Position numbers and translations under genes: made by a program. Shown piece after piece: positions 29,027-61,872 of a stretch of DNA of 64,000 bases. The DNA is taken from assembly GCF_029893325.1 (NCBI RefSeq), contig NZ_JARXWL010000006.1:62001-126000 (forward strand). Reading direction: 5' to 3'. The DNA is from Enterococcus sp. PF1-24. GTDB lineage: Bacteria; Bacillota; Bacilli; Lactobacillales; Enterococcaceae. The stretch's first letter is position 1. Each line of letters opens with the position of its first letter. The notes beneath the pieces were generated by a model. It ran no database searches. It was not told the origin of the DNA and worked only from the letters and a program-made list of their open reading frames with translations.

Positions 29027-29089
29027 AAGGCGAAGAGCGCTAGCTCACGCAACTAGACAAAAAGAAAAGCGGAGTGACTTGCTCTACCC
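29027..29089 (+). repeat. Dispersed intergenic repeat, copy at the smc-HAD gap
   Basis: The segment contains CTAGACAA (29053-29060) followed by AAAAGCGGAGTGACTTG. The same two blocks, reverse-complemented, occur at 60183-60222, and the second block again at 60307-60336. No reading frame of note lies here. Confidence 0.6.
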
Positions 29090-55468: not shown

Positions 55469-55538
55469 GGGAATTCTCCTTTTTGATGAGTTGTAGAATA
55501 GTTTATGTAATCCAGCTATATGGTTTTATGCATTGCAC

Positions 55539-55575
55539 GGGTGCAGAACCAGCCGTTCCGCTTTTTCTATTTTCC
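55539..55575 (+). repeat. Dispersed intergenic repeat, variant upstream of relQ
   Basis: AGAACCAGCCGTTCCGCTTTT followed by a pyrimidine-rich tail resembles 53909-53930 and the GCGCTTTT/TCGCTTTT ends of the 60.2-60.3 kb copies. Confidence 0.4.
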
Positions 55576-58200: not shown

Positions 58201-59565
58201 ATGGACGAAACTGAAGAATTGCAGGAGCAGTTTGAACGATTACTGACTGATTTAAGAGAGAATAATATTCAGGAGTTTAGGGAACGTTTTTTAGGACTGC
58301 ACATTTACGAGCAAGGACAATTCTATCAATCATTAACTAAAGAAGATCGTCAACTAATGTATACTTATTTATCTCCGAAAGAATTAGCCGATATGTTTGA
58401 TGTGATTGAAGAAGATAATGAAAACATGAAAGATTATCTATCGGAAATGCGGCCTAATTATGCAGCTGATATGCTTTCGGAAATGTTTACCGATAACGCG
58501 GTGGATTTATTAAACACTTTAGGCAAAAAGCAAATTGCTAAATTTTTAAGTTTAATGAATAGCGAATCTGCTAGCGAAATTAAAGAACTTTTGCATTATG
58601 AAGATGATACAGCCGGTTCTTTAATGACAACGGAATATGTTTCTATCGTTGCTAACCAAACCGTTCGTTCCGCTATGTATGTATTAAAAAATGAAGCTAC
58701 CGTGGCGGAAACGATTTATTATGTTTACGTGGTGGATACCGATAATCAGCTAGTGGGGGTTATTTCTTTACGGGATTTAATTGTCAATGAAGATGATGCG
58801 ATGGTCGCAGACATCATGAGTGAACGGGTTTTATCTGTTCATGTAGGCGATGACCAAGAAGATGTCGCGCAAACTTTCCGGGATTACGATTTCTTAGCAT
58901 TACCCGTAACGGATTATGACGACCATCTATTAGGGATTGTGACTGTCGATGATATCATTGATGTTATTGATGACGAAGCGGCCAGTGATTATTCTGGTTT
59001 GGCAGGGGTTAACGTTGAAGAAATTAGTGAAAATCCTGTGCGAGCAGCCAGTCGCCGTTTGCCATGGTTAATTACTTTGCTATTTTTAGGAATGATTACC
59101 GCAAGTTTAATTAGTCATTATGAAAGCTTAGTGAGTGAAGCCAGTATTTTAGCGGTTTTTATTTCTTTGATTACCGGCACCGCCGGCAATGCCGGCACGC
59201 AATCTTTAGCGGTGGCAGTGCGGCGCTTAGCGGTTTCTGATGAGAAAAATAATTTCTTTAAACTTGTGATAAGTGAAGTAATCACTGGTTTAGTGACAGG
59301 TTTAGTGACGGGGCTGACGATTTTAATAATTGTTGGAATTTGGAAACAAGATTTTATTTTAGGTTTTGTCATTGGTATGGCGATGTTAGGGGCGATTACG
59401 GTGGCAAATTTAGCGGGGAGTTTAATTCCGGTTTTAATGGATAAACTTGGCTTTGATCCAGCGGTTGCCAGTGGCCCTTTTATTACAACTTTAAGTGATT
59501 TAACCAGTGTTTTAATTTATTTCAATATTGCTAGCTTATTTATGAGTTACTTTATTGGGAAATAA
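58201..59565 (+). CDS. mgtE: Magnesium transporter MgtE
   Basis: Magnesium channel/transporter of 454 residues. ATG at 58201 is preferred to the adjacent TTG at 58198 because GAGGTG is seven bases upstream. The N-terminal superhelical domain (about 1-125) and two CBS domains (about 130-255) form the Mg-sensing gate. Five membrane helices follow (about 280-454), with the selectivity-filter segment FISLITGTAGNAGTQSLAVAVRR. It closes the relQ operon and is followed by a terminator. Confidence 0.94.
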   Translation: MDETEELQEQFERLLTDLRENNIQEFRERFLGLHIYEQGQFYQSLTKEDRQLMYTYLSPKELADMFDVIEEDNENMKDYLSEMRPNYAADMLSEMFTDNAVDLLNTLGKKQIAKFLSLMNSESASEIKELLHYEDDTAGSLMTTEYVSIVANQTVRSAMYVLKNEATVAETIYYVYVVDTDNQLVGVISLRDLIVNEDDAMVADIMSERVLSVHVGDDQEDVAQTFRDYDFLALPVTDYDDHLLGIVTVDDIIDVIDDEAASDYSGLAGVNVEEISENPVRAASRRLPWLITLLFLGMITASLISHYESLVSEASILAVFISLITGTAGNAGTQSLAVAVRRLAVSDEKNNFFKLVISEVITGLVTGLVTGLTILIIVGIWKQDFILGFVIGMAMLGAITVANLAGSLIPVLMDKLGFDPAVASGPFITTLSDLTSVLIYFNIASLFMSYFIGK

Positions 59566-59574
59566 TTTGTTTGT

Positions 59575-59604
59575 AAAGCTATCTCTGAAAAGAGATGGCT
59601 TTTT
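59575..59604 (+). terminator. Intrinsic terminator of the relQ-mgtE operon
   Basis: AAAGCTATCTCT (59575-59586) pairs with AGAGATGGCTTT (59591-59602) with one G-T pair, around GAAA, then T. Confidence 0.9.
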
Positions 59605-59641
59605 GAAGCGATAAGAATATATTTAAAGCAAAGGAGAAGTT

Positions 59642-60136
59642 ATGATGAAAGTAATTGTGATTGGTTGTCCTGGTGCGGGGAAAAGCACTTTTTCACGGAA
59701 GTTAAGAGAGCAGACTGATATGCCTTTACATTATTTGGATAGGTTATGGCATAACGATGATCGAACAACTGTCTCTGAAGCAGAATTTGATCAAGACTTA
59801 ACAGCAATTTTACAACAAGAAAATTGGATTCTTGATGGTAACTATCTGCGCACCCTTGAACTTCGCTTGCAAGCCTGTGATACAGTTTTCTTTTTAGATT
59901 ATCCTGTAGAAGTTTGCCTTGCTGGCGTAGAAACCCGGATTGGTAAAGACCGCGAAGATCTTCCCTGGGTAGAAACGGAATTTGAAGCAGAATTTAAACA
60001 ATGGATTCTTGATTTTGCCAAAGATCAAAGACCACAAATTTGTCAGCTGTTGGATAAGTATCAAGCAACTAAAAATATTTTCATTTTCAAAACAAGAGAA
60101 GCAGCAACAGCTTATTTAAATGCTGACAAAAAATAA
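59642..60136 (+). CDS. P-loop small-molecule kinase-like protein (topology-modulation family)
   Basis: P-loop protein of 164 residues resembling proteins annotated as DNA topology modulation protein FlaR or adenylate-kinase-like. Walker A is GCPGAGKS at 8-15. HYLDRLWH near 30-37 and WILDGNY near 67-73 are the family's substrate-region motifs, and FFLDYP follows. Natural substrate is unknown, and the topology name is historical. AAGGAGAAGTT precedes tandem ATG codons. Monocistronic, with its own terminator. Confidence 0.8.
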   Translation: MMKVIVIGCPGAGKSTFSRKLREQTDMPLHYLDRLWHNDDRTTVSEAEFDQDLTAILQQENWILDGNYLRTLELRLQACDTVFFLDYPVEVCLAGVETRIGKDREDLPWVETEFEAEFKQWILDFAKDQRPQICQLLDKYQATKNIFIFKTREAATAYLNADKK

Positions 60137-60176
60137 AAAGGAAAAACATGACAGTTTAAGGTCATGTTTTTTCTTT
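60135..60176 (+). terminator. Intrinsic terminator of the P-loop kinase gene
   Basis: AAAAACATGAC (60142-60152) pairs with GTCATGTTTTT (60161-60171), with flanking A- and T-runs. Confidence 0.9.
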
Positions 60177-60182
60177 TTATTG

Positions 60183-60222
60183 GGGCGTTGAACAAGCTCA
60201 TTGCGCTTTTACTATTGTCTAG
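60183..60222 (-). repeat. Dispersed intergenic repeat, left copy of composite element
   Basis: The plus strand reads GTTGAACAAGCTCATTGCGC then TTTT and, five bases on, TTGTCTAG. Reverse-complemented it matches the CTAGACAA plus AAAAGCG blocks at 29053-29089. Confidence 0.65.
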
Positions 60223-60245
60223 CTGCGAGCGTTTGCACCACTCGA

Positions 60246-60303
60246 TAAAGTGAAAAAGAAATTCGCGATATAAAGCATCGCTATAATTTATTTTTGCACT
60301 TTA
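60246..60303. repeat. Long imperfect inverted repeat inside the composite element
   Basis: TAAAGTGAAAAA (60246-60257) pairs with TTTTTGCACTTTA (60291-60303). Further inside AAATT pairs with AATTT and GCGAT (60265-60269) with ATCGC (60277-60281). It is flanked by two direct copies of the dispersed repeat. Confidence 0.65.
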
Positions 60304-60306
60304 CTC

Positions 60307-60336
60307 GGGAGTTGAACAAGCTCACTTCGCTTTTAA
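60307..60336 (-). repeat. Dispersed intergenic repeat, right copy of composite element
   Basis: GTTGAACAAGCTCACTTCGC then TTTT matches the left copy at 60187-60210 with three differences in 24 bases, in the same orientation. Confidence 0.65.
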
Positions 60337-60340
60337 TACA

Positions 60341-60373
60341 AAAATTTACCCCTTAGCTGAAAGGGCTAAGGGG
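60341..60373 (-). terminator. Hairpin, candidate argGH terminator
   Basis: CCCCTTAGC (60349-60357) and GCTAAGGGG (60365-60373) pair perfectly. On the minus strand the stem is followed by TAAATTTT, fitting a terminator about 125 bases after argH. Confidence 0.5.
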
Positions 60374-60387
60374 CGAAAGGAGTAAAA

Positions 60388-60459
60388 ATGAAAAAGTGTT
60401 TAAGGGTTTGTTTGTTGGTATGTATCTACTATAGGCCAGATACCTTAAGGCAAACATAA
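60388..60459 (+). CDS. Possible 23-residue cysteine-containing peptide
   Basis: A short frame starts ATG AAA AAG TGT behind GAAAGGAGTAAAA, a very good ribosome site. It encodes 23 residues with three cysteines (positions 4, 8 and 12) and a basic, hydrophobic first half, then ends TAA. I do not recognise it. The frame faces the 3-prime end of argH, so it cannot be an arg leader peptide. It may be a small protein or chance; no plus-strand promoter is obvious. Confidence 0.25.
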   Translation: MKKCLRVCLLVCIYYRPDTLRQT

Positions 60460-60498
60460 GAAAGTATGTCCATTTTGTGAAAAAAGGTTAAGAAAGTT

Positions 60499-61872
60499 TT
60501 AAGACAACTCTTCTTTTGCTTTAGCTAGCGCTTGTTTAATTTGCTCAAATCCTGTGCCGCCTAATGAATTTCGGCGTTGCACCGCGGTTCTTGAAGCTAA
60601 GGCTTGATAAATATCGCTTTCAATTAGCGGTGTAATGGCTTGATATTCAATTAAAGGAATATCTTGTAAATAAGTGCCTTTTTTCGTGCAATCTAAAACT
60701 AACTTACCAACCACTTCATGAGCTTGACGGAATGGCATGCCTTTTGTTGCTAAATAGTCAGCTAATTCAGTAGCGTTTGAAAAGTCTTTTTCAGTTGCTT
60801 GTTCCATTCGTTCGGTATTAATTTTCATAGAAGCAATCATACCAGCCATAATTTCTAAACTAGTTAAAATGGTTTCAGCGGAATCAAACATGCCTTCTTT
60901 ATCTTCTTGGAAATCTTTATTATAAGCTAAGGGCAGACCTTTCATAACAGTTAATAAACCAAATAAATTACCGTAAACCCGGCCTGTTTTACCGCGAATT
61001 AATTCTGCCATGTCAGGATTTTTTTTCTGAGGCATAATCGAACTGCCGGTTGAAAAGGTATCCGTTAATTCTACAAATTGAAATTCATAACTACACCACA
61101 AAATGATTTCTTCGCAAAAACGTGAAAGATGCATCATTAACAGAGATGCGTTACTTAAAAATTCTAAAATGAAATCACGATCACTAACGCCATCTAAGCT
61201 GTTTTCGTAAATTTTAGCAAAACCTAATTCCTTTGCCGCAAATTCACGGTCAATTGGGAAAGTGGTGCCAGCTAAGGCGGCAGAACCTAAAGGCGAAATA
61301 TCAATTCTGCTTAAACTTTCTGTAAAACGAGCTTTATCCCGGGCTAACATGCCATAATAAGCCAATAAATGATGGGCAAAAGAAATTGGCTGGGCATGCT
61401 GCATATGAGTATAACCGGGCATGATCGTTTCAACATTGGCTTCCGCTTGTTGAAGTAAAACTTTTTGGAAATCGGCAATTTTTTCAATTACTTGTTGGAC
61501 GATTTCTTTTAAATATAAATGCATATCTGTCGCTACTTGGTCATTACGGCTACGAGCGGTATGCAATTTACCAGCAACGGGTCCAATTTCTTCGTGTAAG
61601 TATTTTTCGATATTTAAATGAATATCTTCGTTTTCAATGGTAAAAGTTAGTTCACCATTAGCTAATTTTTCCGCAAGGATATTTAAACCCGCTGTAATGG
61701 TGGCACCTTCATCTTCAGTAATGATGCCAGTAGCAGCTAACATTTTTACGTGAGCCAAACTGCCAATAATATCTTGTTTGGCCAGTTTTTGATCAAAAGA
61801 AATGGAAGCGCCAAAAGCGTCAATCCAAGCTTCATTTTTGCCATCAAAACGGCCACCCCAAAGTTTTGCCAT
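60499..61872 (-). CDS. argH: Argininosuccinate lyase
   Basis: Last enzyme of arginine synthesis, 457 residues, splitting argininosuccinate into arginine and fumarate. It belongs to the aspartase/fumarase superfamily. MAKLWGGRF is the family start, [13 protein letters not shown] carries a catalytic-site block, and the signature is [19 protein letters not shown] lies 11 bases before ATG. It is downstream of argG by 75 bases on the same strand. Confidence 0.96.

Follow-up and report, generated by a model that had tools for sequence, protein, structure and literature searches.

The intergenic element and its neighbours

The window analysed here is a stretch of 64,000 nt, taken from positions 62001-126000 of contig C6 in a 2.89-Mb assembly of 74 contigs. 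The features discussed below are collected in Table 1. Between a small kinase-like ORF and argH there is an intergenic element that no ORF of 50 aa or more overlaps, so the earlier sequence-only reading was right to say that it holds no gene. That reading had also described two similar direct copies around a long imperfect inverted repeat with nested stems, and its coordinates were correct. The inverted repeat is present at 60246-60303, GTTGAACAAGCTC occurs in exact copies at 60187-60199 and 60311-60323, and around these copies there is a longer direct repeat of 48 nt (81%) covering 60167-60214 and 60291-60338. The two direct repeats around the hairpin are of different standing: the first is an orphan right-arm module, which we call R0, and the second is the right arm of the repeat unit itself.

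A consensus scan of 60100-60500 gave no promoter within the element, its single match falling outside, and an Rfam search of the 1501 bp from 59500 to 61000 gave no family at E<=0.01 or with a score above its gathering threshold. The genome is that of an enterococcus: the best named relative of the ArgH protein is that of E. phoeniculicola, at 81% identity (the window's own record was possibly left out of this search). In that species argH is followed by a Dps-like ORF, as judged by eye, so the gene order of the window is not kept, and a search of 80 argH loci found the kinase-like ORF near argH in none of them.

Table 1. Coordinates, in the window, of the element, its parts, its neighbours and two relics of the same family
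Feature	Position	Strand	Basis
Core-less family relic with R0, linker and left arm, immediately adjacent to an SMC-like ORF's stop codon	29022-29092	-	nhmmer hit 29031-29072, 16 bits; sequence; ends by eye
Miniature relic, arms with almost no core	55509-55565	+	nhmmer hit; weak covariance hit, E 0.14
Upstream neighbour, small P-loop kinase-like ORF	59642-60136	+	kinase likeness by eye
Intrinsic-terminator-like hairpin in the gap between upstream ORF and element	60132-60181		arms 60132-60152 and 60161-60181 of an inverted repeat, 95% complementary; minus-strand hit 60171-60142 in the terminator scan
Orphan right-arm module R0 (GGGCGTTGAACAAGCTCATTGCGCTTTT), the first direct repeat	60183-60210	+	sequence; 12/14 compared positions equal to the element's own right arm
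7-nt linker from the R0 T-run to the unit	60211-60217	+	sequence; junction table
Complete repeat unit: left arm, hairpin core, right arm	60218-60334	+	window match to covariance model R1, 118.6 bits, E 7.3e-29
Left arm, TTTGCACC sequence type	60218-60239	+	alignment of units; motif rule
Apical hairpin core, the inverted repeat of the sequence-only reading, intact	60246-60303	+	sequence, folds, alignment
Right arm, GGGAGTTGA sequence type, mismatched to the window left arm; the second direct repeat	60308-60334	+	sequence, alignment, motif rule
Terminator-like hairpin beyond the element, towards argH	60348-60374	-	terminator scan
Downstream neighbour argH	60499-61872	-	

A dispersed family with a common unit

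When we searched the genome by blastn with a 211-bp query, 59 matches were returned at E<=10, and 56 of them, the query included, had E<=1.6e-7, an outcome well beyond chance. Iterated nhmmer gave 78 hits in 47 groups on a first set of stretches, rising to 106 hits in 66 groups once another 17 stretches were included; both counts include partial hits, and the second includes at least one antisense duplicate (C27 21700). The copies share a unit of 117 bp, which consists of TCTAGC, the left arm, the core hairpin, the right arm and GCTTTT, in that order. Units stand singly or in tandem behind a 7-nt linker, and they are often headed by R0.

We built a covariance model of this unit, R1, with 117 positions and 38 pairs, from 64 full units, a 65th being left out; the window unit is itself one of the 64, which applies to its score in Table 1. 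On this genome the model gave at least 106 matches at E<=0.1 and at least 90 at E<=6.9e-7, the window copy included. These counts are lower bounds, with 150 of 3608 first-look candidates scored, and seven of the 16 weaker matches are antisense shadows of good hits. None of 64 groups is located inside an ORF, as judged with a crude ORF caller, and a group holds one to three hits in this genome and up to six in a relative. Positions 60183-60336 of the window are one copy of a dispersed intergenic family, and the whole-genome search that the sequence-only reading had proposed, with its at least 90 strong matches, answers the question of whether the feature is local only. Of the two relics in Table 1, the core-less one was not recovered by the covariance model at E<=1. 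The model and the unit register can now be used for annotating the family.

Presence and absence across relatives

In a survey of 105 Enterococcaceae genomes, 38 had R1 matches at E<=0.01, with a patchy distribution: all 22 genomes of genus g14 (G072-G093), nine of 20 in g3, five of ten in g5, one in g12, and the genome studied here. The survey used stricter filters and scored at most 35 candidates per genome, so that the per-genome numbers are lower bounds. The sole other genome of the same genus gave no match to the model. In a set of 25 genomes reached through named loci, nine have matches at E<=0.001 and 16 have none, the negative ones including E. phoeniculicola, E. cecorum, E. durans and Tetragenococcus halophilus. 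E. termitis has 53 matches, E. hulanensis 28, E. diestrammenae 12 and E. avium six, and there is one match each in E. pallens, E. florum, E. raffinosus, Enterococcus sp. 665A and E. mundtii (weak in E. pallens, 665A and E. mundtii). This EFAR-like family, a term we return to below, spans several enterococcal genera of the genome taxonomy that we used. Plasmid and phage records contained no match to the window element or to three units from a relative, and none of 58 pattern matches in viral contigs was confirmed by the covariance model.

Two relatives (G085 and G086) were compared over 400 kb each. This yielded 34 arrays; for 28 of these each flank had a hit in the other stretch, though the hits were not collinear in every case. 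There is one clean empty orthologous site, located between ORFs that resemble PTS components by eye, where G086 has two units and G085 has none in a gap of 86 bp; no stem-loop or terminator was evident there by eye. Four other short orthologous gaps in this pair hold remnants or a divergent copy, again by eye, and several orthologous places are filled in both relatives, some with different unit numbers (six versus one, and one versus four). The sequence-only reading had reasoned that an element conserved at the same place in all relatives and found nowhere else would be a local feature. This is not what we see, given the lack of a match in the other genome of the genus and the empty site and copy-number differences in the two enterococci. 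Its proposal of a non-autonomous mobile element is supported by dispersal together with presence and absence, rather than by witnessed transposition.

The arrays from these two relatives (L278-L317) have another core consensus and the same ends, so cores vary between species while ends are kept. One array locus is orthologous between g14 (L151, L156, L161, L163) and g3 (L197), with DNA about 78-80% identical across roughly 3 kb, which suggests either old inheritance or transfer of the region.

Matching of the arms within units

On a plain MAFFT alignment of the units RNAalifold retained 24 pairs, and 14 of these showed double changes. We then added the outer stem manually and shifted a one-base gap in those rows that belong to the shorter type, after which 90% of cells pair and double changes occur in 23 of the 38 pairs, a number also obtained without the gap shift. 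At one outer stem position all four Watson-Crick pairs occur in numbers. We compared the two arms of each unit at six variable positions (alignment columns 10-15, with G-T counted as a pair): in 81 units own-arm pairing is 0.889, against a permuted mean of 0.615 and a highest value of 0.673 in 2000 permutations. Two related genomes, whose core is different, gave 0.78 versus 0.49 with Watson-Crick pairs only, on a list of 50 rows that includes several mis-anchored ones. An alternative register, in which a left arm would pair with the preceding right arm, is unsupported (0.609 versus a permuted mean of 0.585, p 0.09, 75 cases). The two arms of a copy are complementary to each other, and their sequence differs from copy to copy. 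Inside this covarying stem two mismatches are conserved, T7.C114 in 54 of 62 and C9.T112 in 53 of 62.

If selection acted on a single RNA strand, G-U should be tolerated more readily than A-C. Across 36 pairs, with the two conserved-mismatch pairs left out, we counted 53 G-T and 60 A-C mismatches (p 0.57), and at six positions in the two related genomes there were 15 and 17. Since the two kinds are equally common, the mismatches favour neither strand and point to selection on DNA rather than RNA. The family also has no orientation bias, the left-hand gene being on the plus strand in 29 of 64 groups, on the minus strand in 30 and unknown in five.

The window copy is less well matched than most. 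Folding had been proposed as a check on it, and the inner hairpin proved real, but the copy as a whole folds only modestly better than shuffled sequences: the z-scores of its 154 nt as RNA are -1.5 and -2.9 on the two strands, and that of the unit as DNA is -1.9. Seven other copies chosen by hand, six from this genome and one from a relative, gave z-scores of -4.6 to -7.5. The modest folding of the window copy arises because its outer arms do not match each other. A motif rule applied to the 64 units finds arm types that agree in 57 (30 with both arms of the TTTGCACC type and 27 with both of the other type), a TTTGCACC left arm with a right arm of the other type in four, the window copy included, and other classes in three. 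By eye, one of the four mixed-arm units (C53_299) is only partly mixed, and of the three in other classes one (C21) is a misclassified matched unit and two have lost part of the left arm by deletion. The window copy is chimeric, with a left arm of one type and a right arm and R0 of the other, and from this we infer that it is best read as a collapsed two-unit array. On the simplest reading, the original array would have been R0-La-core-Ra-Lb-core-Rb, and Ra-Lb would have been lost by recombination between the two cores.

Comparison with known elements and candidate enzymes

EFAR, the Enterococcus faecalis repeats, were reportedly described by Venditti et al. in FEMS Microbiol Lett in 2007 as palindromic miniature insertion sequences. 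They are said to be 42-650 bp long, most of them about 170 bp, to be modular, and to be inserted at stem-loops, as shown by empty sites; their insertion reportedly deletes most of the target stem-loop. Our family is like EFAR in being enterococcal, dispersed, palindromic, gene-free, intergenic and modular. Its sizes are also EFAR-like, with 35 bp for R0 and linker, 152 bp for R0 and one unit as in the window (near the 170 bp or so of most EFAR copies), and about 124 bp for each further unit. In contrast to this, the target hairpin in our family seems to be kept in those cases where it can be recognised, and a short duplication accompanies it. EFAR appears to be the closest kind, and since the two were compared by anatomy we file the family as EFAR-type, a new member of that kind, and not as EFAR itself.

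PMC3733652 names EFAR among the MITEs of enterococci, and its title and abstract give the REP unit as 20-40 bp with a GTAG or CGTC tag. Our family is like a generic MITE in its lack of coding capacity, its many copies, its inverted ends and its one clean empty site between two related genomes, but unlike in the usual MITE its inverted arms are copy-specific. Arms that are variable yet complementary within a copy, combined with symmetric mismatches, are unusual for a MITE. The REP/BIME-like character proposed by the sequence-only reading stands only loosely, insofar as these are intergenic imperfect palindromes that occur singly and in arrays. Membership is rejected: the unit is 117 bp and not 20-40 bp, its ends TCTAGC/GCTTTT are unequal, it has no GTAG or CGTC tag, and it shows no association with a Y1 transposase.

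The last point comes from the element-bearing genomes, 14 of 38 of which have no Y1_Tnp match at E<=0.001, and a Y1/RAYT transposase was rejected as the mover. This genome has three Y1_Tnp matches, and one of them (G000:C12:57962-58318) carries two in-frame stop codons. An IS1182-type transposase was likewise rejected as the mover; such enzymes carry the DUF772 domain, which has no match in this genome. Searches with these two transposase domains, Y1_Tnp and DUF772, found no autonomous relative of the family. Integron attC sites have the consensus core sites RYYYAAC and GTTRRRY. These sites resemble our units in having variable self-matching stems with unpaired bases and in forming arrays with direct repeats. 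The units are not attC sites, as GTTRRRY occurs in five of 64 right arms, RYYYAAC in two of 64 left arms and both in none of the 64, and there are no cassette genes. IS1272, of the IS1182 family, is described in PMC5678879 as using inverted-repeat-replacing transposition, in which the stem-loop target is replaced and no duplication is left. Our family may be like IS1272 in having stem-loops as targets, and is unlike it in the short duplication and in the lack of DUF772 in the genome.

Explanations of the element

Our reading, in which we are fairly confident, is that the feature represents one copy of an enterococcal mobile element that carries no gene and is non-autonomous, MITE-like and of the EFAR type. 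No host function is needed to account for the window copy. That the element sits between two terminator-like hairpins might have suggested a local tandem or inverted duplication around the terminators of the two neighbours, with no dispersal at all, but the unit-model matches elsewhere in the genome refute this, and we give it practically no chance. A structured RNA element, such as a 3' UTR hairpin, a bidirectional terminator or an RNase-processing signal, that was dispersed long ago and is now maintained by its function under selection on the transcript, would explain the strong covariation, the hairpin followed by TTTT on the plus strand, the intergenic position, and the fact that 26 of 36 groups end within 7 nt of the stop codon of a convergent gene. 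The symmetry of the mismatches, both in this genome and in the two relatives, speaks against such an RNA, as do the lack of orientation bias, the lack of an Rfam family in the 1501 bp searched and the varying unit numbers at orthologous places. We hold it to be quite improbable.

The matching of the arms could also come from intrastrand template switching at replication (quasi-palindrome correction) and not from the needs of a recombinase, which is compatible with a mobile element. Template switching would account for copy-specific matching without selection and for the symmetric mismatches, and in a few units, L014 and L026 among them by their folds, the match is almost perfect as far as the outer stem. 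Correction should, however, erase the conserved T7.C114 and C9.T112 mismatches and the recurring bulge and internal loops, and chimeric copies with unmatched arms exist; we consider this origin of the matching rather unlikely. A further proposal, which we put forward tentatively and with a low expectation that it is correct, is that a folded single DNA strand is recognised. A recombinase would read its shape, that is, the fixed ends, the fixed mismatches and a GANC-like bulge, while about six stem pairs would be free to vary as long as they match each other, giving copy-specific 'barcode' arms. The fold and its T-run would mimic a terminator and so become the next target, which would give arrays. 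Both template switching and folded-strand recombination predict symmetric mismatches, and the conserved mismatches favour the latter. If true, folded-strand recombination would be a mechanism between those of REP/RAYT and attC systems and would rely on a putative enzyme.

Arrays, junctions and target sites

For 48 arrays with a usable left module we compared R0 with the right arms of the array. Similarity was 7.81/14 to the last right arm and 7.19 to the first, against 6.64 when permuted (highest of 2000 permutations, 7.60). In the 17 multi-unit arrays the values were 8.29/14 for the last and 6.53 for the first right arm, and in the 31 single-unit arrays 7.55; the permutation test was run on all 48 arrays and not per subset. 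Because R0 resembles the last right arm and not the first, an array seems to grow by new units placed between R0 and its last unit.

Both junctions were obtained for 56 of 66 groups, and 52 arrays were used, four being dropped where the right end was not found at TTT; one row that was kept (C2 8630) is mis-anchored. In these arrays the first linker has the same base as the right flank at positions 1, 2 and 3 after the T-run in 0.75, 0.67 and 0.62 of cases, versus 0.39, 0.42 and 0.39 when permuted. No permutation of 2000 was as high at any of positions 1-3, while position 4 is marginal (p 0.04) and later positions are not significant. With 77 of 81 units tested, linker/flank positions 4-6 were also above chance. 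These values fit a short duplication behind the T-run that probably includes the T-run itself. The target-site duplication for which the sequence-only reading had suggested looking is thus partly supported by the agreement of the first three bases; it is partial, and biased sequence behind T-runs could contribute to it.

About six arrays start, by eye, directly behind the T-run of a recognisable terminator (C16 25237, C20 38000, C23 47127, C25 46119, C26 140 and C44 4194). In a crude terminator scan of 64 groups there were hits on the left in 20, and on the right in 17 on the plus strand and 11 on the minus strand, compared with 8.9% of 1095 control positions, which were not limited to intergenic DNA. 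The scan missed the terminator beside the window copy, and by its measure adjacency to a terminator is not a general rule.

For the mobile element that we favour, the following course of events may be proposed. An enzyme acting in trans would recognise the conserved, unequal ends TCTAGC and GCTTTT, and the unit would insert just behind a hairpin and T-run, which could be a terminator or the end of an existing unit. Insertion would duplicate roughly the T-run and three to four further bases. Arrays would form by insertion behind an existing unit, and they would shrink by recombination between similar cores. The origin of R0 is a gap in this model; it may have arisen by duplication of a right arm, or be what is left of a lost unit or of the target. 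The mode of movement of such elements becomes testable by comparing strains.

Two further observations concern the junctions. Where the right-hand gene is convergent, groups end so close to its stop codon in the 26 of 36 cases given above that it is as if a site behind stops were preferred; one of the 36 is an antisense duplicate row, and in two of the 26 the distance is slightly negative. In 0.69 of 77 units the linker ends in a base complementary to the one that directly follows the unit's own T-run, versus 0.45 when permuted, the pairs being mostly A/T or G/C.
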